A stretch of 64,000 bases of DNA from Echinarachnius parma (Eukaryota > Echinodermata > Echinoidea > Clypeasteroida > Echinarachniidae). Below the pieces are notes generated by a model that saw only the letters and a program-made list of their open reading frames with translations, did not search any database and was not told where the DNA came from. The position numbers and the translations under genes were made by a program. Each line of letters begins with the position of its first letter. Within the stretch, counting starts at the first letter, position 1. The stretch lies in NCBI GenBank assembly GCA_037951105.1, contig JBAMJV010001393.1, positions 1-64,000 on the forward strand, given 5' to 3'. Shown piece by piece: positions 219-56,229 of the stretch.

Positions 219-290
219 TAGCAGAGCGAGGTTTCGATCCTCGGACCTCTGGGTTATTGGCCCAGCACGCTTCCGCTGCGCCACTCCGAT
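219..290 (-). pseudogene. Initiator tRNA-Met-like copy with AAT anticodon
   Basis: The body matches the initiator tRNA-Met genes of this cluster, including the T-loop ATCGAAA and the GGG/CCC anticodon stem. The anticodon reads AAT instead of CAT, which would decode isoleucine. The 5' acceptor strand is altered to ATCGGAG, giving one mismatch and one wobble against CTCTGCT. Its upstream flank matches that of the copy at 4288-4359 and of the plus-strand copies, while its downstream flank matches the other minus-strand copies, so it looks like a recombinant. Most likely a decayed copy. Confidence 0.8.
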
Positions 291-499
291 TCCAGTGTAT
301 TATTTTGACCACTTTACATAAATATGGCATGTCACTTGGTTCTTTTTGGATAAGATACATGTACAACACATTGTATTATAATGATATACTATAGTGAATG
401 ATGATGTTCAAGTTATGTAAATGTAAGAACATAATGCATTTACCTTTATCGGCAATGAATTATAATGCATGATTACATATATATTGTCAACAATTTATT

Positions 500-720
500 T
501 CAGGCCAGTAGCCCGGGGGTGGTACGATTGGTGCGCCCCCCCCCCCCCCCCCCCCCACCACCAATTCAGAAAGGTCCACTTTTCATCGGTCTCGGCCATC
601 TCACCCAGTGGTCTCGGTCCCGGGCCACGATCGGTCTGGGCGATCGACAATTACCCCCCCCCCCCTCCCCTGCTTAAACAACTTAACCAGTGCTCTTGCC
701 CTCCCCCCCCCCCCCCCCTT
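500..720. repeat. C-rich low-complexity stretch
   Basis: Three long C runs (about 537-556, 653-665 and 704-718) punctuate a GC-rich stretch of unknown origin in the spacer between two tRNA copies. No coding or RNA feature is recognisable. Such runs are prone to length variation and sequencing error. Confidence 0.7.
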
Positions 721-814
721 AAAAAATAATAGTATCTAATTTATATACCTGGTAGGTAATACAATAAAATGATATAAAAACAAGATATTGAGATTTGAAG
801 AAGAAAAAAGAAGA

Positions 815-886
815 TAGCAGAGCGAGGTTTCGATCCTCGGACCTCTGGGTTATGGGCCCAGCACGCTTCCGCTGCGCCACTCTGCT
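815..886 (-). tRNA. Initiator tRNA-Met (CAT)
   Basis: A 72-nt cloverleaf reading CTGGGCCCATAACCCAG in the anticodon arm. Initiator hallmarks are visible: the A1:T72 terminal pair, three G:C pairs in the anticodon stem and an A-rich T-loop (ATCGAAA) in place of the usual TTC. This is the cluster consensus with no substitutions. An A-rich tract just below 815 gives a T-run terminator on the transcribed strand. It would supply initiator tRNA for translation start. Confidence 0.96.
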
Positions 887-1658
887 TTCGGTATTATGTA
901 CTTTTACATCGATGCTGTTATCATCTTCATTATCACTATTTATACTAATTATCAGCACCACTAACCAATGCCATAATCATTATTATTAAAGGGATCTAGA
1001 AACTTTGTTTCCATGGAAACCACTCCGTGTCTACCTCATCAACATCAGCATCTTCCCGAGCTGGCTCATCTCAGGATACATTTATACACTTTGTTTTCTT
1101 CTTCTTCTTCTTTTGCGTCTTCTTATACTCCCTTTTTTCTTCATCGGTGGTGCATAAACAAGGGTTCTCCAGTTCTGCATCGCTCACATGCTAATAGGGA
1201 TGGAGTCACACAGGCACTCCTCAATGTAACACGGTCTTGAAGGGAGGGACTGCAAGGGTCAAAACGCGTTATCTTGACAATTTTCCGATTAATGCCGCTA
1301 ATATCATATGATAATGAGACATTTGAAATGGCCTCTTAATCGATAATATAAATACGTTTAGACAATTAATACACAATGATGGTGATCATGATAACAATGA
1401 CGTCATGCAAACCAAAATTGAATTAAATTAAAGCAACGCACACCAAGCATCGTATTTTCTGCCTATTATTAATATAATTAATATTATAAACCATATTCCA
1501 TGACTGTATAACCATGCTATACTGCACAATAAACCCCTTTGCTGTAAACTTACCAGAAAGAAATGAATACATAAATAATATTACGATTAACATGATGAGT
1601 ATGATGATGTGATCATGGTGACGAATACAAAAATAAATTAAAAAAAACAATTGAGTGA

Positions 1659-1730
1659 TAGCAGAGCGATGTTTCGATCCCCGGACCTCTGGGTTGTGGG
1701 CCCAGAACGCTTCCTCTGCGCCACTCTGCT
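1659..1730 (-). pseudogene. Initiator tRNA-Met-like copy with CAC anticodon
   Basis: Full-length relative of the initiator genes, but the anticodon is CAC (would read valine GTG). The T-stem has a mismatch and a wobble, and the D-loop is changed (GAGG for GCGG). It shares the D-loop changes and both flanks with the copy at 5627-5698, so the two are duplicates. Probably inactive, or at best a variant. Confidence 0.8.
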
Positions 1731-1875
1731 TGTGATGTATTTTATGTTCTTTTACATTGCAATGTTTCGATACTAATAATTATCACCATCACCACCATGA
1801 TCATTATATCAATTAATGTACCATGATAATTCACAAAGTTTATAAAATAAACGACATGATTATATTTTGGCTATA

Positions 1876-2617
1876 CACTCTAAATTACAGGGATTTAAAA
1901 TCTAAATCGTAGCTTGGATTAAAACAAATATAAATACACTTAGATTATTTGTAAATCTATGGAGACTTAAAAAGTCGCGCGAAAGCAATTGTTAATCGAA
2001 GGCCAAGGTGTGATTTTCAATCCATCAAAGGATTGGAAAATAACGCCAGGTTATCGGAGATTTGACGAATGAGAACAGAGATATTTCACACGTGACCTAC
2101 TGCGGTATTCTGAAGCTCAGATTTCTTAGTTTTATACTCATGAATATTCATAACTAGGATTACGGTTTTGGTTAGAGTTAAGGATATGATTACAATGAGA
2201 CCACTCTTGTCATCATCGATTTACGTAGCGTAGTGGTCACGCTGTGGACCTCCACGCTCGGTGTCACGGGTTCGAATCCTCTCTTAGTCTTCAATTTTTT
2301 CTTTTGCCATGATAATTGGTGAGTAGCGCTTTATTTAGTAAATGTATCATGCACAGTAAACTAAAAACTGAAAATTGTGGCCTGCATCACTGATTATGAA
2401 TAATTCATTAGGATGCCATGAACTCGCCTGGGGCCTAATAAGATTAACATAAAACAAATCCAAAAGGGCTTCATTTTTAATCTATCTGGATTTATATTTT
2501 TTAAATCCAACAAAAGATTTATTTTAAATCATGATCGGCTGGTCCCTAATCACAGCCGAAGAAAGATTTAAAAGTAAATCTAATAGATTTAATTTTAAAT
2601 CCTTGTAATTTAGAGTG
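1876..2617. mobile_element. 742-bp inverted-repeat element with a tRNA-like core
   Basis: The ends form an inverted repeat: CACTCTAAATTACAG then GGATTTAAAAT at the left, and its reverse complement ATTTTAAATCC then TTGTAATTTAGAGTG at the right. The same site in the duplicated block near 5840 has no insert, which defines the element as an insertion. I see no transposase reading frame, so it would be non-autonomous. No clean target duplication is visible. Inside, at 2219-2290, lies a tRNA-like sequence. Confidence 0.82.
2219..2290 (+). other. tRNA-like Pol III promoter segment
   Basis: Matches to an A-box (TAGCGTAGTGGTCACG) and a B-box (GGGTTCGAATCC) are spaced as in a tRNA gene. The putative anticodon arm leaves a loop that is too short, and the acceptor ends do not pair, so this is not a functional tRNA. 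It looks like the head of a tRNA-derived SINE captured inside the inverted-repeat element. Confidence 0.6.
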
Positions 2618-2673
2618 GACATGCAAAACATGAATTCAGTGAAATAAATACAAATGGGGATTTAAAAAAGGGA

Positions 2674-2745
2674 TAGCAGAGCGAGGTTTCGATCCTCGGA
2701 CCTCTGGGTTATGGGCCCAGCACGCTTCCGCTACGCCACTCTGCT
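2674..2745 (-). tRNA. Initiator tRNA-Met (CAT)
   Basis: Consensus initiator tRNA except for C13 to T in the D-stem, which leaves a T:G wobble pair. The anticodon CAT, the A1:T72 pair and the ATCGAAA T-loop are intact. The A-run just below 2674 supplies a T-run terminator. It is the paralogue of the copy at 5901-5972, in duplicated blocks. Confidence 0.93.
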
Positions 2746-2995
2746 TTCGATATAATTATGTACTTTCACATCGATGTTGTTATCATCATTATCGCTTTTC
2801 CTAATAGTTATTAACAACACCATCAATACCATGATCAGTATCATAAAGTGCATGTAAAACCATACGTAATAACGCACACATTTAATACAATAATTCCATG
2901 ACAACATATTTTGGCTAAGGACACACCATGTAAACATCATCAAGTATCGTATTGATTTGGAAAAATGAAAACTATAAAATGGGTATAAAACAGGA

Positions 2996-3067
2996 TAACA
3001 GAGCGAGGTTTCGATCCTCGGACCTCTGGGTTATGGGCCCAGCACGCTTCCGCTGCGCCACTCTGCT
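2996..3067 (-). tRNA. Initiator tRNA-Met (CAT)
   Basis: Consensus copy except that C71 is T, giving a G2:T71 wobble in the acceptor stem. The anticodon arm and T-loop are intact. It is paralogous to the copy at 6223-6294, which carries the same acceptor change, so the wobble predates the block duplication. Confidence 0.92.
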
Positions 3068-3308
3068 TTCGGTATGATTACTTACTTTTACATTGGATGT
3101 TGTTATCGTAATATATTATTACTATTCCGAATAATTATTTTATCTACACCAACACTATACTACCATGAATATTATCATCTAAATACCATATCAAAACAAC
3201 AAATTCATAAAATAAATGGCATGATTATATTTCGGGGCTATAATGGCATAATACAAACCATGTCAACATCATCAAGACAGTGTCGCTTTGAGTACTAGTA
3301 TACATGCA

Positions 3309-3868
3309 GTGCGTATAAAAAAACCGTTACACTTTTGAAAAATCTGTCAAAATTACATTTCAAAATATTTAGAAGATTTTTTTTCATGTCGATAGATGCC
3401 CAATAGTCTCATCTATCAAGTGCCACTAACAAAACAAATGTTCGTTCACGCTTGGGCGAACACTGACTGTTTTTGTCCAGAGTGTGAAAAATGACTTGCG
3501 CCAAATTGAAAGAAGAGGGCAAATTATACCAGCAGTCCGAATAAGTACTCCCATTCAAACAAATTGCTCTTTGCCATAATTTTAATGATTTCAATGCTTT
3601 ATGCCAGAAAATTCCTAGACTATCATAACATAATCCTAAATTTATGCAAAAGAGCAATTTGTTTGAATGGGAGTACTTATTCAGATTGGCGCAGGTCATT
3701 TTTCACACTCTGGACAAAAACGGTCAGTGCTCACCCAAGCGTGAACAAATATTTGTTTTGTTAGTGGCGTCTTGATATCTATCAACATGAAAAAAATCTT
3801 CTATACATTTTGAAATGTAATTGTGACAAATTTTTCAAAAGTGTAACGTTTTTTTTTTTTATACGCAC
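3309..3868. mobile_element. Foldback element with arms of about 230-260 bp
   Basis: Two long arms are near-perfect reverse complements. The left terminus is GTGCGTATA followed by an A-run and CCGTTACAC, mirrored at the right by GTGTAACG, a T-run and TATACGCAC. The arms, about 3309-3575 and 3640-3868, flank a loop of about 65 bp. No coding capacity is seen. It sits between tRNA copies and would form a large cruciform or hairpin. Confidence 0.88.
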
Positions 3869-3902
3869 GGTATAATTAAAAAAATGGGGATTCAAAAGAT
3901 GA

Positions 3903-3974
3903 TAGCAGAGCGAGGTTTCGATCCTCGGACCTCTGGGTTATGGGCCCAGCACGCTTCCGCTGCGCCACTCTGCT
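3903..3974 (-). tRNA. Initiator tRNA-Met (CAT)
   Basis: Exact cluster consensus: anticodon CAT, three G:C pairs in the anticodon stem, A1:T72 and an A-rich T-loop. A short AAAA tract just below 3903 could act as terminator. It lies immediately beside the foldback element that ends at 3868. Confidence 0.96.
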
Positions 3975-4217
3975 TTCGGTATTATGTACTTATACATCGA
4001 TGTTGTTTTCATCATCATCATCATTATTCCTTATAATATTATTATCAACACCACACCCTTACCATGATCATCTTCAAAATACAATAACGCATGCACCAAG
4101 TGCATACAATAAACGGCATGATTGGGATAGGCCGATAGGGACATGCAAATCATGTTGAATCATCATCAAGTATCGCATCGATTAGAACTGAAAACCATAA
4201 AATGCGGGGAGAGAGAA

Positions 4218-4242
4218 AGCAGAGAGAGGTTTTGATCCTCGG
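4218..4242 (-). pseudogene. 3' fragment of an initiator tRNA-Met gene
   Basis: Only the T-arm and 3' acceptor strand remain (reverse complement of CCGAGGATCAAAACC and the CTCTGCT-like end). At 4243 it is fused to a stretch that matches the spacer downstream of the plus-strand gene at 7962-8033 (shared ATGTGCCTTCCGAGACTTCC). It marks a recombination junction between the two spacer classes. Confidence 0.75.
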
Positions 4243-4287
4243 TGGAAGTCTCGGAAGGCACATAACAAACTGAAGAAGAAAACAAAA

Positions 4288-4359
4288 TAGCAGAGTGAGG
4301 TTTCGATCCTCGGACCTCTGGTTTATGGGCCCAGCACGCTTCCGCTGCGCCACTCTGCT
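4288..4359 (-). tRNA. Initiator tRNA-Met (CAT), partly weakened
   Basis: The anticodon CAT and the overall cloverleaf are kept, but position 39 is A, which breaks one of the three G:C pairs typical of initiators. G65 is also A, giving a T-stem mismatch. Both flanks belong to the spacer class of the plus-strand array although the gene is on the minus strand. It may be expressed poorly or be an early pseudogene. Confidence 0.75.
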
Positions 4360-4589
4360 TACAGTGTATTTTGTTGACCTCTTTACATCAATATGTCATG
4401 TCTCTTGGTTCTTATTTGATAAGATAAATGTAGAACAATTTACAAGCTAATGATGAAGATCAATTTACAAGTTTGTAATGTTCCATTATTGACACAAAAA
4501 AAATAATAACAATTTGAACATTTATCATAAAATGTATCAACTCATTGTTTTGTGGAAGGTATTCAAATAGATTCAAACAAATAACAGGA

Positions 4590-4661
4590 TAGCAGAGCGA
4601 GGTTTCGATCCTCGGACCACTGGGTTATGGGCCCAGCACGCTTCCGCTGCGCCACTCTGCT
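4590..4661 (-). tRNA. Initiator tRNA-Met (CAT)
   Basis: Consensus apart from one change in the variable loop (A44 to T). All stems pair and all initiator features are intact. Its flanks differ from both main spacer classes of the cluster. Confidence 0.95.
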
Positions 4662-4986
4662 TTTTATGCATCAATTGAGCTGCATCATCTGCATGGATGT
4701 GTAGATACTTTCCTAATTCAAAATCAACGTCAAAATCCCCGTGCTATATACCTGATGAAGCCTCGACGTAGACATGGTAACATTGTACTTTAATGTTTTG
4801 TCAGTCTTTTAATTCAGATTGTAAATTGAACTGAACTATTCAAATTCAACATTTGTATTAATTTTCCGGCATGCAATTCTCACTTCTTTTCTATTTCCTT
4901 CATAAAGCAAAGACACAAAAAAAGTGAAACGTGTCACATTTATTAGTTTTAATGAAAGAAATCAAAATTGTGATTGAAAAAAGGGA

Positions 4987-5058
4987 TAGCAGAGCGAGGT
5001 TTCGATCCTCGGACCTCTGGGTTATGGGCCCAGCACGCTTCCGCTGCACCACTCTGCT
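4987..5058 (-). tRNA. Initiator tRNA-Met (CAT)
   Basis: Consensus apart from C11 to T in the D-stem, a tolerable T:G wobble that also touches the A-box. The anticodon arm and T-arm are intact. An A-run just below the gene serves as terminator on the transcribed strand. Confidence 0.92.
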
Positions 5059-5289
5059 TTCGGTGCCATTTACCTTTACATCTTCATTATCACTATTATC
5101 AGCACTACCACCAATACCATGATCATTATTATTAAGTGCATGTATACCATACGTAATTTAATACACCAAGTTAATAAAATAAACGACAAGACATTTATGG
5201 GCTTGGGACAAACTAACAATACCAAGTTCATCAAGTATCGCATTGTTTAGAAAAAATGAAAACAACAAAATGCGGATTGAAAAAAATGC

Positions 5290-5361
5290 TAGCAGAGCGA
5301 GGTTTCGATCCTCGGACCTCTGGGTTATGGGCCCAGCACGCTTCCGCTGCGCCACTCTGCT
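5290..5361 (-). tRNA. Initiator tRNA-Met (CAT)
   Basis: Exact cluster consensus with intact acceptor, D, anticodon and T arms. The AAAAAA tract just below 5290 gives a Pol III terminator on the minus strand. Confidence 0.96.
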
Positions 5362-5474
5362 TTCGTTGCATCATTAGCACCAAAGGTGTCTTATAACTAA
5401 AATGTCCACGCCCGTAAAATACATGTATATAGCGTACAGCAAAACTGTCGGGAATAACTGTTACATTTTTAGGT

Positions 5475-5498
5475 GGGGGGGGGGGGGGGGGGGGGGGG
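5475..5498. repeat. Run of 24 G
   Basis: An uninterrupted run of about 24 G in the spacer upstream of the copy at 5290-5361. The length may be unreliable in the assembly. Confidence 0.9.
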
Positions 5499-5626
5499 TG
5501 TCCTTCGCTACGCCATGCATTCTCAAAAAGAAATGAATACACAAATACTATTACGATTAACATGATGAGTATGGTGATGTGATCATGGTGACGAATAAAA
5601 ACATTAATAAAAAAACAATTGAGTGA

Positions 5627-5698
5627 TAGCAGAGCGAGCTTTCGATCCTCGGACCTCTGGGTTATGGGCCCAGAACGCTTCCTCTGCGCCACTCTGTT
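5627..5698 (-). pseudogene. Degenerate initiator tRNA-Met copy (CAT)
   Basis: The anticodon is still CAT, but G2 is A (A:C mismatch in the acceptor), the T-stem has a G:G mismatch and the D-loop reads GAGG. It shares the D-loop changes and flanks with the CAC copy at 1659-1730. Likely non-functional. Confidence 0.75.
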
Positions 5699-5900
5699 GT
5701 GATGTATTTTATGTTCTTTTACATTGCAATGTTTCGATACTAATAATTATCACCATCACCACCATGATCATTATATCAATTAATGTACCATGATAATTCA
5801 CAAAGTTTATAAAATAAACGACATCATAATATTTTGGCTATAGGGACATGCAAAACATGAATTCAGTGAAATAAATAAAAATGGGGATTTAAAAAAGGGA

Positions 5901-5972
5901 TAGCAGAGCGAGGTTTCGATCCTCGGACCTCTGGGTTATGGGCCCAGCACGCTTCCGCTGCGCCACTCTGCT
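5901..5972 (-). tRNA. Initiator tRNA-Met (CAT)
   Basis: Exact cluster consensus, paralogous to 2674-2745 but without its D-stem change. An A-run (TTTAAAAAAGGGA) just below supplies a T-run terminator. Confidence 0.96.
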
Positions 5973-6222
5973 TTCGATATAATTATGTACTTTCACATCG
6001 ATGTTGTTATCATCATTATCGCTTTTCCTAATAGTTATTAACAACACCATCAATACCATGATCAGTATCATAAAGTGCATGTAAAACCATACGTAATAAC
6101 GCACACATTTAATACAATAATTCCATGACAACATATTTAGGCTAAGGACACACCATGTAAACATCATCAAGTATCGTATTGATTTGAAAAAATGAAAACT
6201 ATGAAATGAGTATAAAACAGGA

Positions 6223-6294
6223 TAACAGAGCGAGGTTTTGATCCTCGGACCTCTGGGTTATGGGCCCAGCACGCTTCCGCTGCGCCACTCTGCT
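6223..6294 (-). tRNA. Initiator tRNA-Met (CAT)
   Basis: The anticodon arm is intact. It carries the G2:T71 wobble shared with 2996-3067. The T-loop is ATCAAAA instead of ATCGAAA, a change inside the B-box that may lower TFIIIC binding. Confidence 0.85.
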
Positions 6295-6537
6295 TTCGGT
6301 ATCATTTACCTTTACATCGATGATGTTATCATCTTCATTATCACTATTATCAGCACCACCACCAATACCATGATCATTATTATTAAGTGCATGTACCATA
6401 CGTAATTTAACGCACAAAGTTAATAAAATAAACGACAAGACATTTATGGGCTTGGGACAAACTAACCATACCAAGTTCACCAAGTGTCGCATTGTTTAGA
6501 AAAAATGAAAACAATAAATGCGGATTGAAAAAAATGA

Positions 6538-6596
6538 TAGCAGAGCGAGGTTTCGATCCTCGGACCTCTGGGTTATGGGCCCAGCACGCTTCCGCT
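6538..6596 (-). pseudogene. 5'-truncated initiator tRNA-Met copy
   Basis: The 3' two thirds match the consensus exactly, including the CAT anticodon. The sequence stops within the D-loop, where it meets a run of T at 6596. The acceptor 5' strand and A-box are missing. This is the point where the cluster changes orientation. Confidence 0.88.
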
Positions 6597-6700
6597 TTTT
6601 TTTTTTTTTTTTTATAAATTATACATTATAAATATAAATATAAATATAAATATAAATAAATATAAATATAAATAAATATAATAATAAATATATATAAATG
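6596..6700. repeat. Poly-T and ATAAAT microsatellite at the orientation switch
   Basis: A run of 18 T (6596-6613) is followed by imperfect TAAATA repeats. Minus-strand tRNA genes lie on its left and plus-strand genes on its right. The sequence after it (from about 6705) matches the downstream spacer of the plus-strand genes, so one plus-strand gene seems to have been lost here. Confidence 0.8.
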
Positions 6701-6961
6701 TTGTAATACCTTCCAAGGCTTGCCATATACAGCGAGATGCAATGTAATATACGAATGTTGACATGGTTAGTAATTTCCTATAGTAAAGTAAATACAAATA
6801 AAACATTATTGTTGACAATAAAATAATAATCATACATTTCAATTTATTTTTGTATCATTTTATATATAATATATAACTAATTGTTCTACTTATATCTTAC
6901 CAAGAAATAAACAAGAACCAAGTGATACATAAATGTAAACTGGTGCTAAGAATTCATCGAA

Positions 6962-7033
6962 AGCAGAGTGGCGCAGCGGAAGCGTGCTGGGCCCATAACC
7001 CAGAGGTCCGAGGATCGAAACCTCGCTCTGCTA
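6962..7033 (+). tRNA. Initiator tRNA-Met (CAT)
   Basis: Exact consensus, and the first gene of the plus-strand array. TTTT at about 7040 is a Pol III terminator. The upstream flank (ACAAGAACCAAGTGATAC) is shared, inverted, with the copies at 219 and 4288. Confidence 0.96.
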
Positions 7034-7149
7034 TCATTCTTTTATTCCCAGTTTGTTATGTCTTCCAAGGTATCCACAGAACAGTGAAATGCCACGTAAT
7101 ATTATGTGAATAGTCATTCCCTATACCAAGTATAAATAAAACATTATTG

Positions 7150-7366
7150 TAGGAGGTGAAAGCCTTTATGTGAACGATCTTCTTGAGCCCACTGAGCGCT
7201 TGGAAGGAATACTCCCCAGGGAGTGGAGATGGTGCACACAATGTGTGCTGGTTCGCATCGTATCCTATGACCGGGGTAATAATAAATGTAAAGCGCTTAG
7301 ATATGATTATCAATCGTGATAAGCGCTATATAAAAATTGGATATTATTATTATTATTATTATATTT
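7150..7366. repeat. Dispersed repeat ending in an ATT microsatellite
   Basis: Contains ATGACCGGGGTAATAAT and GTAAAGCGCTTAGA, ending in CGCTATATAAA plus (ATT)n. Its core recurs inverted at about 49890-49945. The tail of short tandem repeats suggests a retroposed, SINE-like element, but no Pol III boxes are clear. Confidence 0.6.
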
Positions 7367-7568
7367 TACATTTCGGTTTATCTTCGAGAATGGTATGTAC
7401 TATATTTGTCAGAAATTCATACAAATTTTTAGATTTAACTAAACCATTCACGTGTATATTATTGTAATACTAGTATTTTCTACTTGTATCTTACCACAAA
7501 ATAAATAAGAAAAAAGCATACATAACATATTATTGATGAAAATTCGTGATCAATAAGAATACATCGAA

Positions 7569-7640
7569 AGCAGAGTGGCGCAGCGGAAGCGTGCTGGGCC
7601 CATAACCCAGAGGTCCGAGGATCGAAACCTCGCTCTGCTA
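7569..7640 (+). tRNA. Initiator tRNA-Met (CAT)
   Basis: Exact consensus copy with all initiator features. A long T-run begins a few bases downstream (about 7647). The spacer after it is homologous to those after 7033 and 8033. Confidence 0.96.
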
Positions 7641-7961
7641 TCATTCTTTTTTTTTCTTCTCGGTTTGTTATGCCTTCCACAGAACAGTGAGATACGACGT
7701 AATACATTGTATTATGAATGTTGAAATTGTTAGTCATTCCCTATACCACTTAGAAATAAAATAAAGTGATTATTGCTGAACATAAATAATCTTACATTTT
7801 AATTCGTTGTCTATAATGGTTATTTACACTTAACTTTGAAATTGATCTCCATTTTCCCAAGTTTGCAATACTACTTTATTTTAATTATCTTACCAAAAAA
7901 TAACCAAGAAACAAATGTACATGCCATTATAAATTATGTAGGGGCGTAAGAATACATCGAA

Positions 7962-8033
7962 AGCAGAGTGGCGCAGCGGAAGCGTGCTGGGCCCATAACC
8001 CAGAGGTCCGAGGATCGAAACCTCGCTCTGCTA
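7962..8033 (+). tRNA. Initiator tRNA-Met (CAT)
   Basis: Exact consensus copy, followed directly by an eight-T terminator. Its downstream spacer (ATGTGCCTTCCGAGACTTCC) reappears inverted beside the fragment at 4218-4242. Confidence 0.96.
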
Positions 8034-8381
8034 TCTTTTTTTTCGTTTGTTATGTGCCTTCCGAGACTTCCACAGAACAGTGAGATGCCGCTTAGTATTA
8101 TGAATGTTTAAATGGTTAGTCATTCCCTTTACCATTTATAAATACAAAATAAAGTGATTATTGCTGAAAATAAATAATCTTGCATTTTAGTTGATTGTTG
8201 ATAATTATGATCGTTAAAACCAAATAACACTCAATAAAACTTTTAAATTGCTCTTCACCATTCCCAAGAATATTATTACACTACTCATATAACTTTACTT
8301 TTTATTTTGCCACAACCGAACCAAGATCCAAATGTACATGAAATCATATTTGATGTAAAGGGGTCGTAAGAATACATTGAA

Positions 8382-8453
8382 AGCAGAGTGGCGCAGCGGA
8401 AGCGTGCTGGGCCCATAACCCAGAGGTCCGAGGATCGAAACCTCGCTCTGCTA
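8382..8453 (+). tRNA. Initiator tRNA-Met (CAT)
   Basis: Exact consensus copy with a TTTTT terminator starting at about 8456. It is the last closely spaced gene of the plus-strand array. Confidence 0.96.
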
Positions 8454-8794
8454 TGTTTTTAAAAAAAATATTTGTTATATCCCCTTTCATGAAAGCTTAT
8501 CAATGTGACACATAGTAGTGTTGGGATGTTGTTTCCCTAGCCCAAACTATAATTAGTTATCATAGGTATTATCGTTCTTTATTACACTGATAATGATGAT
8601 CACGATGGGGGTGATATTGATTTCAATTTCTAGTGATAATAATACAATATATTATATCACCATCATATTATAATTCTGTTAAAAACAAGAACAAAAAAAA
8701 CACACCACATGACTGCATTAAGGTAAACATACGTCAAGTTTTATGCAATTGTCAGAATTACTATTAGTAATTAGTAATTAGTAATTAGTATGAT

Positions 8795-9135
8795 AATGCT
8801 TTGGATGTTACGATGGTTGAAACTCTGGAAGATAGGCGGAAGAAAATATGCTTGAAGTTCGGCAAATCCCTCCTTAATTCTAATGATTTCCGGAACTGGC
8901 TCCCAGAACAGAGACCAGACACTGGAAGGCAGTTACGTCGTCAAACAAATTTATATTCTATTGGTTGTAGGACAGAAAGGTATAGGTCCAGCCCTATTCC
9001 TTACATTGTGAGATGCTTGAATAAAAATACTAATTAGATACCTTAAAATCCCCATGTATATTGATGCATGTAATACATTAGACACGTAAGTTTTGTACTA
9101 TTATAATATACTGATTTGATTTGATTTGATTATTG
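8795..9135 (+). mobile_element. 3' end of a non-LTR retrotransposon
   Basis: Codons from about 8813 to 9037 translate to the conserved C-terminal tail of LINE-type reverse transcriptase proteins: ETLEDRRKKICLKFGKSLL, then a tryptophan-proline (WLP) step, then CRTERYRSSPIPYIVRCLN. A stop follows, then a short 3' UTR and a (TTGAT)n tail at about 9110-9133. Everything upstream, including the reverse transcriptase core and endonuclease, is missing, as expected of a 5'-truncated insertion. The tail is typical of CR1/jockey-like groups, but I cannot fix the clade. Confidence 0.82.
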
Positions 9136-9599
9136 TGTTATAATTGTTCACGCACATAATTCCGATCTGTATTATTATGATTATGATGCTTCCTATCTTT
9201 ATTATGATGCTTCCTTTGTGTGAGGCATTTGTGTATAATAACGGGCAATTATACTTTGATGGTAAAAATGCATTTATTCACCCTTACGAATTGTATTGGA
9301 TAATTGATTTGTACAAACTAGTTATTACAGCGAGATACAGTACCTTATAATTGTACATTTAATACTTTTGACTTTAAAAGTAAGTGTTGATTATTATAAG
9401 CTATTGAACCAAACCAAAACACTCTTATTGAAATGCATTTGAATTCGCATTTTTGTGTACGAGTCTCAATTTACGGGTGATATCATTATATCCATAATCC
9501 ATGTAATTGAATAGAGTTAGTTAAGCCATTGAATGCAATACATTATAATTCATATATCATATCATTCTATTCGGATAATTAATTATTACTAATTTTCAA

Positions 9600-10110
9600 G
9601 AATTGCTGCTAGTTTATGTAGTTTTTGTATAAATCTTTAACTTGCTTAGTAAGTGTTATAAATATTAATTTATAAGTATTTTAAATTTGATAAATTTTAC
9701 TTTTAAATATTAAATTTGCATTAGAAAATCGAATTAATACACGATGCCTTAATATTATATTATGGGCTTTTGTTATTACTCATTTCATGTATCAATATAT
9801 AAAACAACATTATTACTCACTGTCGTTGGTTAGTAATTACGGCTAATTCGTTATTCTATTAATTTGTGATTGAGCTATATTATGTAATTTTCGTAAATTT
9901 TTAACTAGCCCAGTAAATGTTACAGCAGTCATAATGGTTTTAATGTTATCTTAAAATATAAAATTTGCATTAGGAAATATAAATTGATACATGATGCCTA
10001 TTGATTTTTCTAATCACTTAATTATTGATTAATCGATATACAAAATAATAATATAAGTTACTGTCTTTCGTTAGTATTCATGCCTAATTTGTGATACTAT
10101 TCAGGTATAT
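9600..10110. repeat. Diverged tandem duplication, about 245 bp
   Basis: Two AT-rich units (about 9600-9850 and 9850-10100) share ordered blocks such as AAATTTGCATTAG, ACACGATGCCT/ACATGATGCCT and TACTCACTGTC/AGTTACTGTC. No coding or RNA role is visible. Confidence 0.6.
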
Positions 10111-10359
10111 TATGATTTATTTCTCTAATTATTGTATATAATATATTAAGGTTTCTTTATACCTCGTGAGTTCATTAATGTTATTTCCATGTTTGTAAAT
10201 ATTGTTGCAAATGACACTGCAATTCAGCTTGTAGCTGTGAATGTGACATTTTGTTGAATAAAATACCATTATTATTATAGTTTCTTGAATAATTATGACC
10301 ATTGTGTTATATTCCAATGAAATATAAATGGGAACATTATCAATACATATTATACCTCA

Positions 10360-10431
10360 AGCAGAGTGGCGCAGCAGAAGCGTGCTGGGTCCATAACCCA
10401 GAGGTCCGAGGATCGAAACCTCGCTCTGCTA
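10360..10431 (+). tRNA. Initiator tRNA-Met (CAT), outlying copy
   Basis: Anticodon CAT and all stems are intact. Two loop changes are present: one of the paired D-loop G residues is A, and position 32 is T. A TTTTT terminator follows at about 10436. It stands about 1.9 kb from the rest of the array, with unrelated flanks. The D-loop change could weaken the D-loop/T-loop contact. Confidence 0.85.
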
Positions 10432-12520: not shown

Positions 12521-13470
12521 GTAAGTTGGGCATGTGACCATGTGTTGAGTCAGTGTCACCTGTGTGTATGTGTGTTTATTTGTGTACATCGCTACATGCG
12601 TATATTAGTGCAGTGACTTTCTCCTGCATATGGCAATGTTTACAAGCAGAACTGTTGTTGGAAATGGGTATAATTTCTATTTTTACTCCCTTCCCTGTAT
12701 AATTCAGCGCTGTTTCATGACATTTTCATGCCAAATGTGTGAATTATTTTCCCCGCACCCTTTTAAAATTTCACTTGTGCATTTATAACAAGTTCTTCAG
12801 TGAACATATGTTTTGGTGCAGAGACGTGCAACAGTGCTGTGATAGTACCATATGGTCAATACAGGACTGTGTATACTGCATCGATGAAACTGCCAAGGTG
12901 TGCCACTGTCTTGTTGTAATTGGTGTGAAAATGGAATTTAATCAATAATTTTCTTAGTGCTGTTTATTTTGTTAATTAATGACACATTTCCCAATCAATC
13001 CCATGTTCTATTTTTTTTTTGCTTGATACACACGGAGTACTGACAGCGACACAGATTTGTATTCCTAGATAATTTTTTCTCAGTTTTCTCAGAGCTTCTT
13101 AATCTTAGTTCTACAATTTCCTTTTGGAGATAAAATAAAGATAACTTGTTCTGTGCCTGTGGTCCTTCATTTATTTCTTTTGTAATAGTTCATAATCATA
13201 TTTCTTTTTCTTTTGATTTTTCTTTTGATTTTGAACTATTCAAGAATAATGTCTCTTTCTGAATGATTTGTTTATTTGTTGCAGAATCAGTTATAACTGC
13301 AATATTTTAAATATATCACATATATCGCTAAAAATGTTGAAGAGTAGACACCATTTGTATTTTAACATCGTAGTTTTTAATTCCTTTGGCAAAATCCTTA
13401 AATGAGAAAAGCATGTCAAACAATATTACAATAACATTCAAATACTTAGATCAATAAATCTATCGTTTCC

Positions 13471-14518
13471 AGGGCCTCTTTTAGTTTTTATGCCTCCGCC
13501 AACGAAGTGGCCGGAGGCATTATGTTTTCGGGTTGTCCGTCCGTCCGTCCGTCCGTACGTACGTCCGTACGTACGTCCGTCCGTCCGTCCGTCCGTACGT
13601 ACGTCCCGTTTTCGTTCTCGCGATATCTCAAGAACCAGTTGACGGATCAATTTCAAACTTGGTATGAGTGTACATATTGGGGTGACAATGATCTGATTAG
13701 ATTTTAGGGGTCATGAGGTCAAAGGTCAAGGTCACAGGACTCAATATATATACAAAAATGCCTCGTTCTCGCGATATCTCAAAAACTGGTTGACGGATTA
13801 AATTCAAACTTGGTATTAGTGTAGATATTGGGGTGGCAATGATCTGATTAGATTTTGGGGTTCATGAGGTCAAAGGTCAAGGTCACAGTACTCAATGTAT
13901 GTGTAAAAAAGCCTCGTTCTTGCGATATCTCAAGAACCGGTTGACGGATCAATTTCAAACTTGGTATGAGTGTACATATCGGGGTGCCACTGATCTGATT
14001 AGATTTAGGGGGTCATGCGGTCAAAGGTCAAGGTCACAGGACTCAATATGTATGCGAAAATGGCTTGTAATGGCAAAATTTCAAGAACTGAATGTCGGAT
14101 TTCAATCAAACTCGGTACCTGATTGTATCATAAAGAGTTAAAGTAGCCATAAAATGTTGGAGTCATGAGATTGAGGTCAAGGTCACGGGACTCATTATGC
14201 ATGCAAAAAAGCTTGTAATGCCAAAATCTCAAGAACTAAATGTCAGATTTCAATCAAACTTGGTACCTGAATGTTTTTTAGGGAGCCATCAAAGATTAGG
14301 ATCAGATGGTTAAGGTCACAGGACTCCAAATATATGAAAAATATTTTTAAAAATTAAATCAGTGCATGTTAATTTGGGCTTGATATTAAAATCGCGTAAT
14401 AGCGGAGGCATAATTTTCGATTGCGCGCAATCGAAGATCCATCTAGTTTACAATTACTGTACTGTCTTATACTATTGACTCTTTTATAAGACAGTACAGT
14501 AAACATAAAAGAGGCCCT
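13471..14518. mobile_element. Inverted-repeat element with AGGTCA-bearing tandem units
   Basis: Outer ends AGGGCCTCTTTTA and TAAAAGAGGCCCT are a 13-bp inverted repeat. Inner ends TGCCTCCGCC and GCGGAGGCATAA form a second one. Inside are a CCGT/ACGT microsatellite (about 13538-13608), three good tandem units of about 145 bp and two diverged ones. The better units carry AGGTCAAAGGTCA (13716-13728, 13867-13879, and CGGTCAAAGGTCA at 14018-14030). This is a direct repeat of the nuclear-receptor half-site with 1-bp spacing. The unit also occurs, inverted, inside 44839-46659. No transposase frame. Confidence 0.8.
14453..14503. repeat. Perfect 16-bp hairpin
   Basis: TACTGTACTGTCTTAT pairs with ATAAGACAGTACAGTA around a loop of about 18 bases, just inside the right end of the larger element. 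It could be a subterminal structure or a small nested element. Confidence 0.75.
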
Positions 14519-14599
14519 AAAAACGACAATTTTAATTAAAAAACCATTGTGGTATATTTTCAATAAATTTCAAAAAAAGTGTAGGTTTCCTAAATTATT

Positions 14600-18210: not shown

Positions 18211-18488
18211 CAGGGCTCGACAATAGCACTTGCCCTATTGCCCGGGGCAAGTACAAAATTATGTTGGGCAAGTACAATTTCATAAATGGTCTTCTTTGGT
18301 TGCCCTATCAGACAACTTAAAAACTGTTCAACTACAAGAGAAAAATACAATTTTGAATGTGTTATCTCACCTAGAAGTTCATGGGCAAGTTAAAGTAATT
18401 TTTCTGTTGGGGCAAGTAAAATTTTAAGATTTATGATTTTACTTGCACGAATGGACCAGTACAGAAAAAAAGTGAGTGTGTAGGCTTG
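18211..18488. mobile_element. CAGGGCTCG family element
   Basis: The left end CAGGGCTCGACAATAGCAC and the right end, which reads CAAGCCTACACACTCACT in reverse complement, form an imperfect inverted repeat. The element is flanked by CCTAATT on both sides (18204-18210 and 18489-18495). The interior holds repeated GGGCAAGTA/ACTTGCCC blocks. Non-coding. Related copies: 22100-22343, 23961-24235, 60989-61239. Confidence 0.75.
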
Positions 18489-20927: not shown

Positions 20928-21489
20928 TTAAAGGGATAGTTGAGTTCTGGTAAGGAGAGTAGTTTTGGTGAAACTGAATTTTAGTAACCAAAACCTGCAT
21001 CATTACATTACAAACTAATAGTTATAACTAGAAAGGAACACAAAATTATAAATGACGTAGTAAAGATCATGTTATCATTCAAAAAGAGCCGTTAAAACGT
21101 AAGAGGGCGCTCTCTAAACATTCATCGGTTTCAACCATTTTGAATAAAATATTGTGCATGTGATGTTTTGTTGAAATAGTGATTAGAAAGAGAAATAACC
21201 AACAACTATTTAAATACCTATTTTGTGACTTTTTGAAAAGAGGAAGCATGTTAAACAATTTTTTAACGGTTGGTTCAAAATTCTCTAATAAACCTGGGGC
21301 CCCAGCTTTATTACAAATTGTTATATTTATGGATATTTCAGCCGTCTCTGAACCGATTTTGATCAAACAAAGATGATTTTATTATTTAAATATTATGCTC
21401 TTTCAAATTTTGCACTCAGTTTTTCATTACCTCACAAACAAAATAAGTAGTCTAGCGCCCTCTCTACCAAAACTCAACTATCCCTTTAA
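20928..21489. mobile_element. TTAA family A element, complete copy
   Basis: Bounded by TTAA on both sides, with AGGGATAGTTGAGT at the left and ACTCAACTATCCCT at the right. At 562 bp it is the best-preserved member and defines the family. No transposase frame; probably mobilised in trans by a piggyBac-like enzyme, if the TTAA reading is right. Confidence 0.8.
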
Positions 21490-22099: not shown

Positions 22100-22343
22100 C
22101 AAGGCTCGACACTAGCACTTGCCCGCTTGCCCGGGGCAAGTAAAAACTGATGTCGGGCAAGTAAAATGACATTAATGGTCTAGTTTAGTTGCCCTATTGG
22201 GCAACTTTAATTTCTCTGTAGTTCCTTACATTAATATATTCTAGAAGCAAGTAAATTGTCTGTTTGGGCAAGTAAAATTTGAACATCTATGATTTTATTT
22301 GCCTGAACGGGCAAGTTGAGAAAAAGGTTAGTGTGGAGGCTTG
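22100..22343. mobile_element. CAGGGCTCG family element
   Basis: The left end CAAGGCTCGACACTAGCAC and the right end (reverse complement CAAGCCTCCACACTAACC) pair well. CATAACA flanks both sides (22093-22099, 22344-22350). Interior GGGCAAGTAAA blocks as in the other copies. Confidence 0.78.
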
Positions 22344-23960: not shown

Positions 23961-24235
23961 CAGGGCTCGATTCTGGCACTTGCCCGACTGCCCGGGGCAA
24001 GTAAAATTTTATGTCGGGCAAGTAAACTTTCATAAATGGTCTAGTTTGCTTGCCCAATTGGGCAACTTAAATTTCTCTTCAACTGCGGGGGTAGAATGTA
24101 ATTCCTTACATGTAAATCTCATATAGAAGCAAGCGGGCAAGTACATTTTGTGTTTGGGCAAGTAAAATTTGTACATTTATGATTTTGCTTGCCCAAACGG
24201 GCTAGTAGAGAAAAAGGTTAGTGTGGAGGCTTGGG
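23961..24235. mobile_element. CAGGGCTCG family element
   Basis: Left end CAGGGCTCGATTCTGGCAC and right end GTTAGTGTGGAGGCTTG. CATAGC occurs just outside each end. The interior carries the GGGCAAGTAAA blocks of the family. Confidence 0.72.
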
Positions 24236-36440: not shown

Positions 36441-36679
36441 ACTCAAGATGTGTAAATGTTCACTAGAAATGTAAAAGAACAGTATGTTCATACAGGAAGG
36501 GAGATGAACATTCATGCACAAAAAAATATGGTCACAGTAACAAATTCCATTATAAACCAGAATGTAAGCCATTGTCATTGCATCAACCTTCCTGTGGTTG
36601 CACAGTTGGGCAAGTAAACTTTATTGTTATATTAATTAATGCAAACAAAGCTGATTAAAAAGAAACCAGTGAATATGGC

Positions 36680-37735
36680 AACGCTCGAAATTAACTTTTT
36701 TTGCTGGTGGCCCGATCGGGCAAGTAGAATTGGTATTTATCCAATATTGGTGGCCCGAAACAGAAATTTGGTGGCCCGAAAAAACAAGGAAAAACAAAAG
36801 AAAACAGTGACCGGTAATCTTAGCTTTTCATAAGAATTAATTAATGAAAATAACATCTAAAATCACCACCCTGATCAAAAATCCGTAAAGGAATATATAA
36901 ACCCAACATTGAATCAGTAAAAGGTAATTTTGGAGTGATGAAATGTTACAATTTCAGCCCTTTCTCTGTGCGATTTTGTCAACTTACAAGTTGAAAGTTG
37001 AAATTATACACAAAACAACATGCATGGGACTGAACTGGAACTCTCACAAAATTGGCATGAAACATCTACAAAAGTACAAAACTAGATAAAACAAAATCTG
37101 TACTACCTTATTATGAGTCCTATATTTGAAGTTCTTTCAAATTATGTGATGCTTTGAAAGATAATAAGGCCTTTCTGGCTTTCTTGCCCAAACGAATTTG
37201 CGCAAATTGGACTGAATTGAAGACAAGTCAAAGCATAGTTGCAGAGTTGACTAGACTGTGTGTGGCTATGCGAATTGCTGTATTAAGCTGATGTACATAC
37301 CGTCCCCATTTATAATACATGGGGCCGGGTCAGTACAAGGTACCAGCATGTGTGTACACTTCTAGTTCTACTTGTATGCACTAGTAGTAGACTGGTAAAT
37401 CAGTCTTTCTCTTTGTTGTTTGTCTCCCCAAGATGTCATAATTTTCATAGGCACCTCCAGAACGAGATGAATTTTTCTGTCTAATCACGCACATTTCTCC
37501 AGATTATCGCCGTTAGCAGATTTGCGCTCGCTATTTTGTTGATTTTTTCCACTGATTTCCTTTGTTTTTTATGCCTGGTTTTGGCGATGTTTGAAATGTC
37601 AAATTTTCAGATTTACATTTGGAAATCTTACTGGCCCAATCGGGCCACTAAAATAGAGCAATTATGATTTTTTGGTGGCCCGACAGAGATTTTTGGTGGC
37701 CCCGGGCCATCGGGCCTGTGCTAATTTCGAGCGTT
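36680..37735. mobile_element. Mutator-like element, 1.06 kb
   Basis: The ends AACGCTCGAAATTA and TAATTTCGAGCGTT are a 14-bp perfect inverted repeat. They are flanked by the 9-bp direct repeat GAATATGGC (36671-36679 and 37736-37744). A 9-bp duplication suits the Mutator group. Subterminal blocks GGTGGCCCGATCGGGCAAGT and GGTGGCCCCGGGCCATCGGG resemble the CAGGGCTCG family. I see no transposase frame. Confidence 0.82.
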
Positions 37736-38099
37736 GAATATGGCAATGAAAACATACTTGGTTATGTGGTGGTCAGAGCCAGCTATCCACATTCAAGTTC
37801 AAATATCCATCTCTCACTTGAATAATTCAGTTTTGTCTCCATCCATCTATTTATGGCACATATATGACATTTCGTTTGGCTAAATATGTTAATGAAATCC
37901 TGCACTCTGGATGGTAATGGAGAGAGGCAGAGAGCCGAGAGATATTGAACAGAGGGAAATTTTGGTATCTATTTTTAGAATTGGTGAAAACAAAAAATCA
38001 AACTTTGCATAATTGAAGTGGGGAAATGTACCAATTTAGGAGAGGAGAAGGAACATGAGTGCATGAGGGAATGTAACTTATTCAGTACAGGACAATATC

Positions 38100-44838: not shown

Positions 44839-46659
44839 ATATGGGCAATTCCAAGGTAACAGCGTGACGGTCGGAGGGTGTTTCTCACGATGAAAGTCTA
44901 AATAACTCACAAAATAAAAATGTCCAGAACCAAATTTTGATATGCATCTGTTACCACTATCCTACCAATTATTTACAATAGGAAAGAAAATCAAAATTCC
45001 CACTAAATTATGAATTATGAATATCAATATCTGCGGTAACAGCGTGACGGCAAAAAGACATGGGTTTCTTACATGGTAAGAAACTAAGCAAACTCTGTGA
45101 ACTACAGGAACATTTTGCAATTTTGTCACATTGATTCTTTGTACTAGACATCAAGCTAGAACATCCAAATAAAAATGTAGAAAAAATCCAATGTTCATAG
45201 TAAATATGATATCATAAACATATCTGTGCACGGTAACAGCGTGACAGTAACAGCGTGACCTCTGAATTGTACATGTTATATATATATGGGAGATATTGAT
45301 GAGATGAATAAGATTATATAATTTTGATGTAGTCATCCAGAATCTATACAGAACTAGATGAATGGGTAATATAACCCAGATGCTCTGAAATGATGGTTCG
45401 CATGACACAAATTTGCAGCCTAGCGCCCTCTATTGATCAAAAATGTTTTGGGGCATAACTGAAATTCTTATCTTTTTCAGAATTTAGTTTGAGGAACCAT
45501 CAAATATCAAAACCAAAATACAAACTTAATTGCAACAATGAAATATTAGACCTTTGACATCTGACCTTTGACCTTATTTCTCAAATTAGCATACAAATGT
45601 TTAATTCTATGTCGGCACAGTGCATATCTACAAGTGATTTGTTTCATGTAACATGATTTCAATGTCAGTAAGTTTTTGTGTTTGAATTGGTAATTATCCG
45701 AGTGACCTTTGACCTGTGCTCCAAACATTTTCATAGAATTTTCTTTTATCTACAGTACTCTTTCTACCATTAATTCTGGCATTTTTTTGTGAGATAAACA
45801 ATAAACTACAATAATTTGACCCATTGACCTTTGACCCCATGACCAAATTCTATAATCAGGTCATCTACTTCACTGAACGCATACCAGTATTAATTATCAT
45901 GTCATCCTTCAAGGATTCTTGAAATATCTTGAGAATAATATATTTTTTGCATATTAATTAGCTGTGACCTTTGACCTTTGACCTCATGGCCCCAAAATGT
46001 ATCAGATCATCCATACCTCTGAATACATGTCTTGTACAAAGTTTGAACAGAATCCATCCAACGATTCTTGAGATATTGCAAAAAAAAAGTAGGTTGCGTC
46101 ACGCTGTTACCCTAAAAGTAACAGCGTGACCAAATTGATATTGCTTAGATTAATTAGTGGTAAAAGATAATGCTGCTATTTAGCATCCATAATATAGCCC
46201 TATGGGCGAATGAAGAAGAAACAAAAAATAATTTCATTCCCATTCATATTTTTCCAGAAATATTAAAAATACCTGTTTTTAGGGTAACAGCGTGACATAT
46301 AGATGACTATAAATGAAACATTCACTGAAGCAGAACAAAGAGCGAAAATGCCGAAATTTATATTTATCTGATAAATTGAAGTAATGTTCTTACCAACACT
46401 GAAAGAAAATTTTATGAAAACCTATTTTTGCAGCTCTTTTGAGCTTAATATTTACAAGTATATTTTGTGAAAATAATTGAAAATTAATTTATGCTAATTA
46501 ATTCCTATGAAATAATAGTTTACGCAAACATTTTTTTTGAACAAAATGCATTTCTGAATAGTTTAATCTTTAAGCTTTAATTTGATACCAAATATGTTAT
46601 TATTCGACGAATTTGAAAAATGGGTGCTTATGTCAATGTTTGCTTGGAATTGCCCATAT
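44839..46659. mobile_element. 1.8-kb element with seven GTAACAGCGTGAC motifs
   Basis: Bounded by a 17-bp perfect inverted repeat: ATATGGGCAATTCCAAG (44839-44855) and its complement (46643-46659). The 13-mer GTAACAGCGTGAC occurs at 44856, 45036, 45233, 45247, 46118 and 46284, and inverted at 46098; the first copy abuts the left end. The inverted pair at 46098-46130 forms a hairpin with a 7-base loop. Between 45540 and 46090 are units of about 120-140 bp with TGACCTTTGACCT, homologous to those inverted in 13471-14518. No long reading frame. Probably a non-autonomous DNA transposon whose superfamily I cannot name. Confidence 0.75.
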
Positions 46660-54429: not shown

Positions 54430-55960
54430 ATTTGATTCTCGGCAGGTGCCAAGATACGAGTGTAAACCTGTTGTGAACTTGTCTTTATGAATAATTGAAA
54501 TCATGATTTGGATGGGGTCGTTCTTCTCTGTGATCATCGACACGAACAGATCATTCGTAGCTTCTGAATAAGATTGCTTCTAAAGGTTTGTGCTAAGATA
54601 CAAGCCTTGACTATTTGTGAGCTTGTCCTTATGAATAATTCAAATCTCGACTGTCTCTTGAAATTCCTCTATGTGATCACTGAGACGAACAGATCATGCT
54701 CGGCTTCCAACGATTCTACGACATCTCCTAAAATAAGATTGTTACACATTTGTGAACTTTACTTTATGAATAATTCAAATTGTAACTTCTCTCTATTGGA
54801 TGATATATAACACTAACGGATCATTCTTAGTTTCTAAAGATTCTACGCCTCCTAAAATATCATTGTCAGTGTTACACATTGTGAACTTGTCTTTCTGAAT
54901 AATTAAAATCGTAAATATCTCTCTTAATTCCTCACCATGATCACCGACACGAACATATCTTCCTGAGCTTCTGAACAAGATTCTACGCCTCCTCCTAATA
55001 TAAGATTGTTACACATTTGTGAACTTTACTTTATGAATAATTCAAATTGTAAATATCTCTTACAATTTCTCTCTAGATAATCTATGACACTAACAGATCA
55101 TTTTTGGTTTCTAAAGATTCTTAGGGCTTCTAAAATATGAGTGTTACCCAATTCAAGGCTTGCCAGGCTTGCCTTCAGTGGTGGCCCAGGTGCCAAGGGC
55201 CACTAGCAATTATTTTATTGGCCACCAAGGTGCTGGGATCTACAATACATGAGGCATATATGGTGAGAGTCTATCTGATGTGTCATTTTAGCCACATGAG
55301 GGAATGTAAAGTTGACTTTCAGAATAATTCAAATCGTAACTATCTCTCATCATTCCTCTATGTGATCACTGACACGAACAGATCAGCTTCTAAAGATTAT
55401 ACGCCGCCTCCTAAAATTTCATGATTGTTACACAATTGTGAACTTTACTTTATGAATAATTCAAATTGTAACTATTTCTTACTATTTCTCTCTAGATGAT
55501 CTTTGACACTAACATACCATTCTTAGTTTCTAAAGATTCTACGCCTCCTAAAATATCACTGTTAGTGTTACACATTGTGAACTTTTCTTTCTGAATAATT
55601 CAAATCGTAACGATCTCTCGTAATTCGTCTCTGTGATCACCGTCATGAACAGATCACACTCGGCTACTAAAGGTTCTACGCCTCCTTCTAAAATAAGATT
55701 GTTGCACAATTGTAAACTTGTCTTTCTGAATAATTCAAATCGTAACTATCTCTCGTAATTCGTCTCTGTGATCACCGTCATGAACAGATCACACTCGGCT
55801 ACTAAAGGTTCTACGCCTCCTTCTAAAATAAGATTGTTGCACAATTGTAAACTTGTCTTTCTGAATAATTCAAATCGTAACTATCTCTCGTAATTCCTCT
55901 CTGTGATCACCCACACGAACAGATCACGCTCAGCTTCTAAAGGTTCTTACACTCCTGCTG
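54430..55960. repeat. Satellite-like array, units of about 120-135 bp
   Basis: About a dozen tandem units share TATGAATAATTCAAAT, CGTAACTATCTCTC, CTGTGATCACCGACACGAAC, AGATCA and AAAGATTCTACGCCTCC. Two neighbouring units near 55620-55890 are almost identical with a 135-bp period. A partial GGCCAC-type repeat (55150-55250) is inserted. Confidence 0.85.
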
Positions 55961-56229
55961 AAATGCCCAGGGTTCCATTAAGTGGTGAACCTGTTCGTAA
56001 ACTGATCAGCATGAATAATTCTTAGTCTTACTCTGTTATCGTAAATACTGTGCATATTTTTTGTAATGCCTGGATGGCAACGGAAGTGATTGACCCTGTT
56101 GAAAAAAAAAGTTGGCACAGGTATGACTGGAATAAAAATATAAGTATAATATACAGCAGAATTTTACCAGATGGTACGTCTGTAGCAGGGAAAAGGGTGA
56201 CATTTTATTTTCAGGTGTTAAATTTCCTA

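Follow-up and report, generated by a model that had tools for sequence, protein, structure and literature searches.

A probable non-autonomous DNA transposon of a known kind, with seven exact copies of a 13-bp motif between perfect 17-bp inverted repeats

In CACTA transposons, TnpA binds subterminal repeats, and defective elements that keep such sites move (PMC2613891). Harbinger3_DR uses a second, Myb-like protein that recognises a 9-bp subterminal motif (PMC9710019). The terminal inverted repeats (TIRs) of PIF/Harbinger elements usually have A or G as their first base, and the preferred target of ISL2EU is A|AT|T (both from PMC4482050). VANC21 binds a 9-base motif in the non-coding parts of its own element, and single-base changes sharply reduce this binding (PMC5735166).

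We analysed a stretch of 64 kb (hereafter the window) in which the 13-mer GTAACAGCGTGAC is present in seven exact copies (44856-46296; six plus-strand, one minus-strand). All seven lie between two 17-bp inverted repeats and none lies outside them; a search of the window that allowed two mismatches found no others. The features are given below.

44839..46659, no strand assigned: whole inferred element, 1821 bp, 31.9% G+C, bounded by the 17-bp inverted repeats, with all seven 13-mers inside
44839..44855, plus strand: left terminal inverted repeat ATATGGGCAATTCCAAG, matching the right arm at 17/17 bases
44856..44868, plus strand: 13-mer copy 1, directly adjoining the left terminal repeat
45036..45048, plus strand: 13-mer copy 2, exact match
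45233..45245, plus strand: 13-mer copy 3, exact match
45247..45259, plus strand: 13-mer copy 4, in tandem with copy 3, one base between them, 14-bp period
45549..46084, plus strand: central diverged tandem repeat, unit of about 140 bp, with TGACCTTTGACC at 45562, 45703, 45825, 45965 and 45972
46098..46110, minus strand: 13-mer copy 5, the sole minus-strand copy
46118..46130, plus strand: 13-mer copy 6, forming a hairpin with copy 5
46284..46296, plus strand: 13-mer copy 7, forming with copy 5 a 20-bp perfect inverted repeat (46098-46117 / 46277-46296)
46643..46659, minus strand: right terminal inverted repeat, perfect partner of the left arm

The initial annotation had described a 1.8-kb element with 17-bp ends and a perfect 13-mer occurring seven times within 1.45 kb, one copy touching the terminal repeat and two forming a hairpin pair. 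All of this was confirmed. The arms are identical throughout, with the identity breaking off right after base 17; the seven copies span 1441 bp; copy 1 starts at 44856, the arm ending at 44855; and copies 5 and 6 fold into a hairpin (46098-46130, 13-bp core stem, 7-nt loop, z -8.43) that none of 200 shuffles equalled in stability. Copies 1-4 lie within 421 bp of the left end and copies 5-7 between 363 and 562 bp from the right end, leaving a middle of 838 bp free of the motif and the clusters in the two flanking thirds. The layout is asymmetric: copy 1 begins 17 bp inside the left end, whereas the final 363 bp on the right are empty.

The same annotation had held that chance does not explain the repetition, and this was upheld: when the 1821-bp element was dinucleotide-shuffled 1000 times, two was the highest count reached by any 13-mer, and 0/100 shuffles of the whole window gave seven matches to GTAACAGCGTGAC, even at two mismatches. 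Within the element the motif had seven matches at zero mismatches and none at one to three, and it returned to the background level at four (3 vs. 2.1 expected) and five mismatches (14 vs. 12.7 expected). Alignment of the 110-bp flanks revealed no column outside the 13-mer that was common to all seven copies, the best columns being A at -3 and at -17 (each in 6/7) and G at -1 (5/7). With no flanking base common to the whole set and no copies in the element at one to three mismatches, the 13-mer forms a unit with sharp limits. The earlier impression of a dedicated protein-binding site was supported as far as confinement to the element, departure from chance and sharp edges are concerned; the protein site itself is still putative.

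Some copies may ride on an old, much-diverged longer repeat. Flank pairs were more similar than random window pairs (p<0.05) in 3 of 21 upstream and in 5 of 21 downstream comparisons, the neighbouring copies 3 and 4 accounting for one of these on each side, and positions 44974-45053 match 45170-45250 at 68% identity over 82 columns, including the 13-mers of copies 2 and 3 (E 0.001). As the cause of the 13-mers, a longer repeat was rejected, given the zero flank columns common to 7/7, despite the mild excess of flank similarity. A GTNAC half-site was also rejected, GTNAC not being enriched in the rest of the element (10 vs. 10.8 expected). A small nested element at 46098-46296, bounded by 13-mers within a 20-bp inverted repeat, was not favoured because no TSD was seen by eye and the other 13-mers stand alone.

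Perfect inverted-repeat pairs of at least 13 bp, spaced 150-4000 bp apart, numbered 90 in the window: 60 in a tRNA array, 6 within the element and 24 elsewhere by our count, six of these 24 being 17 bp or longer. As such pairs are not rare in the window, the ends alone are weaker evidence than the ends plus the motif, and it is the coincidence of the two that makes the case for an element. ATAT adjoins the ends. TSDs of 1-10 bp were scored in 15 registers, which left 44839, 44841, 44842 or 44843 as the candidate true start on the left. Since ATAT is palindromic, the ends can be read in four ways.

Reading 1: element start GGGC, TSD ATAT (or AT)
Reading 2: element start ATGGGC, TSD AT
Reading 3: element start TGGGC, TSD TA
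Reading 4: element start ATATGGGC, without a TSD

No 3-bp or 8-bp TSD was found in the 15 registers, which excludes the standard CACTA, PIF/Harbinger and P element signatures on this copy.

Among the stop-to-stop frames of the element, none of the ten longest (41 to 92 aa) gave a Pfam match above the cut-off, the best being a weak Pectate_lyase_4 match (E 0.09, 12.8 bits vs. a cut-off of 24), and no transposase, Myb, THAP, DDE or YqaJ sequence was found in them. A coding relic was rejected on these grounds. Since these frames contain nothing recognisable as coding, the element would need a partner if mobile. The longest open frame with a start codon in the whole window is 168 aa; this lack of long frames, together with the 18 tRNA genes (16 tRNA-Met), suggests that the DNA is from an animal. 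The element is present as one copy in the window, and no relatives were found in the prokaryote and viral contig collections. The one database match was to the 17-mer end alone, in a 74-kb viral contig that had neither the 13-mer nor a second arm in the 7065 bases examined; this match is probably due to chance.

Compared with the known systems, the locus resembles non-autonomous TIR or MITE-like transposons in its terminal inverted repeat (17/17 bp) and in having no transposase gene in its ten longest frames (0/10 Pfam matches). It shares with CACTA (En-Spm) a short terminal inverted repeat and a repeated short motif inside the ends in both orientations, here seven copies, 6 plus and 1 minus (PMC2613891). 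However, its ends read ATATGGGC or inner registers rather than CACTA, it has no 3-bp TSD, whereas that of Tgmt is three bases, and its motifs spread over 560 bp instead of being packed at the end. The short subterminal motif and a TIR that may start with A or G recall PIF/Harbinger, in particular Harbinger3_DR, but the 3-bp TWA TSD fits no register of the element and no Myb or transposase match was obtained. A 2-bp AT TSD, as in ISL2EU, is possible. By contrast, the flanks are T|AT|G or T|AT|A, not the A|AT|T given for ISL2EU, although a single copy may have a deviating target, and THAP, DDE and YqaJ sequences are absent from the frames tested. The P element and the zebrafish THAP9 element differ in requiring an 8-bp TSD, absent here, and in having one inverted pair of sites, where this element has seven mostly direct copies. 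With VANDAL/VANC of Arabidopsis the element shares a short motif repeated in the non-coding parts of a DNA transposon (PMC5735166), but that is a plant MULE system with other motif letters, and the element carries no coding gene.

The initial annotation recognised no described family. For the letters of the motif this holds: no printed instance of GTAACAGCGTGAC was found in the literature searched, nor any occurrence of its reverse complement or of the two end sequences, and the two human-medicine papers in which a 12-base piece occurs were judged unrelated. For the kind of element it is overstated, because repeated sites bound by a transposon protein have already been described in CACTA (TnpA), Harbinger (the Myb-like protein) and VANDAL/VANC.

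The locus is thus most likely a new and as yet unclassified non-autonomous DNA transposon carrying repeated putative subterminal protein sites, of a kind already known. That it is such a transposon, probably a recent one, whose 13-mers serve as subterminal sites for a protein supplied by a partner, is in our judgement somewhat better than an even bet. A transposase acting in trans would cut at the inverted ends of 17 bp (or 13-15 bp). The 13-mers would serve as subterminal sites for this transposase or, more probably, for a partner-encoded second DNA-binding protein, which would load on the clusters inside each end (four sites on the left and three on the right), pair the ends and perhaps relieve silencing.

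In favour of this transposon are the position of all seven motifs inside the ends and none outside, copy 1 adjoining the terminal repeat, the sharp edges of the 13-mer, the clusters in the flanking thirds with the middle free, a possible TSD of ATAT, AT or TA, and the precedents of TnpA in CACTA and the Myb-like protein of Harbinger3_DR. The lack of partly decayed 13-mers, together with ends identical at 17/17 bases, fits a recent insertion. Several observations count against it: the TSD is ambiguous and possibly absent; perfect inverted repeats of at least 17 bp exist elsewhere in the window; the motifs are asymmetric, with 6/7 in one direction and the final 363 bp empty, in contrast to compact subterminal arrays; the total absence of degenerate 13-mers is unusual for protein sites; and there is the mild flank similarity with the 82-column match. 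The single known copy also counts against it; mobility is what we infer, as are the autonomous partner, the protein binding and the recency of the element. Should ends and 13-mer prove to recur as a set, the 13-mer would offer a handle on the autonomous partner and the DNA-binding protein it encodes, and the exactness of the motif (no copies with 1-3 mismatches) would suit a model of protein-site coevolution; if not, the feature is a curiosity of one locus.

The main functional rival, compatible with the same anatomy, is an anti-silencing role, in which the 13-mers would not primarily pair the ends but recruit a transposon-encoded protein that lifts host silencing, as VANC does on VANDAL. The motifs are scattered in non-coding DNA and partly tandem or paired, each contains a CpG (7 of the 26 CpGs of the element lie inside 13-mers), and the 9-base motif of VANC21, sensitive to single-base changes, offers a precedent (PMC5735166). 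However, VANC is a plant system for which an animal equivalent was not found in the literature searched, no coding copy was seen, and the element is not depleted in CpG relative to the window (observed/expected 0.56 vs. 0.62). We regard this role, argued by analogy, as unlikely. A bolder form of it would be an animal transposon family that relies for mobility or escape from silencing on a dispersed 13-bp site with zero tolerance, read by a dedicated, undescribed transposon-encoded protein, as an animal counterpart of VANC; this is a long shot.

The 13-mers could also be a functionless relic of short-unit repeat growth within the element, through slippage, template switching or gene conversion. 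Copies 3/4 in tandem and copies 5/6 as a hairpin have shapes that slippage and template switching produce, and the mild flank similarity and the 82-column match agree with such an origin. Against it, the seven units are exact although their spacing varies from 14 to 865 bp, both orientations occur and their flanks otherwise differ. Such a set is hard to obtain without selection or a very recent spread, and we consider a relic improbable.

That the element has collected host transcription-factor sites (the 13-mer plus five TGACCTTTGACC) and so forms a portable regulatory module is doubtful. The 13-mer contains TAACAG and GCGTG, which we take to resemble Myb and bHLH-PAS cores, and TGACCTTTGACC, a DR1 nuclear-receptor half-site pair, occurs five times in the centre of the element (45562-45983, spacings 141, 122 and 140/147). 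Seven perfect 13-base matches without degenerate copies are, however, stricter than usual host sites, and the TGACCTTTGACC sites belong to a longer repeat that is also found at 13.6-14.2 kb: positions 45812-46084 match 13615-13890 on the minus strand at 69% identity over 284 columns (E 1.5e-29), and the central repeat as a whole recurs at 13615-14235, minus strand, between other inverted repeats. The two stretches, which have different ends, thus share a central filling, as in tandem-repeat-carrying transposons; the 13-mer and the 17-bp ends are what sets the element at 44839-46659 apart from the stretch at 13.6-14.2 kb. That the 13-mers are iteron-like sites, bound by the replication initiator of an integrated virus or replicon, is very improbable: the exact short direct repeats and the hairpin resemble iterons and an origin hairpin, but the ten frames tested had no viral or replication domain and no relative was found among the viral contigs, the single match lacking the 13-mer and a second arm in 7065 bases.

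The surroundings are rich in repeats. The second locus of the central repeat lies in an inverted-repeat-ended stretch at 13455-14534 (AGGGCCTCTTTTA, 13471-14518) with an inner pair TTATGCCTCCGC and the TGACCTTTGACC repeat at a 151-bp period. The window has further motif clusters (54.4-56.0 kb, 56.5-57.1 kb and 22.1-24.2 kb), but these belong to longer repeats and do not compare with the 13-mer. A minisatellite of eight or nine diverged units, each about 135 bp long, occupies 54440-56017, and a dispersed repeat, rich in GGGCAAGT motifs of both orientations, is found at 22100-22343, 23961-24233 and also near 18244-18426. A transposon-like interval at 36679-37736 has 15-bp inverted ends CAACGCTCGAAATTA and AATATGG on both sides, a 7-bp direct repeat resembling a TSD, while positions 20928-21489 are MITE-like, with a 19-bp perfect inverted repeat TTAAAGGGATAGTTGAGTT and 562 bp overall. 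The tRNA array (219-10431) comprises 18 tRNA genes (tRNA-Met in 16 cases) arranged as two blocks of opposite orientation, one on the minus strand to about 6.3 kb and the other on the plus strand from about 7.0 kb. A large imperfect foldback with successive perfect arms of 13-27 bp lies at 3309-3868.
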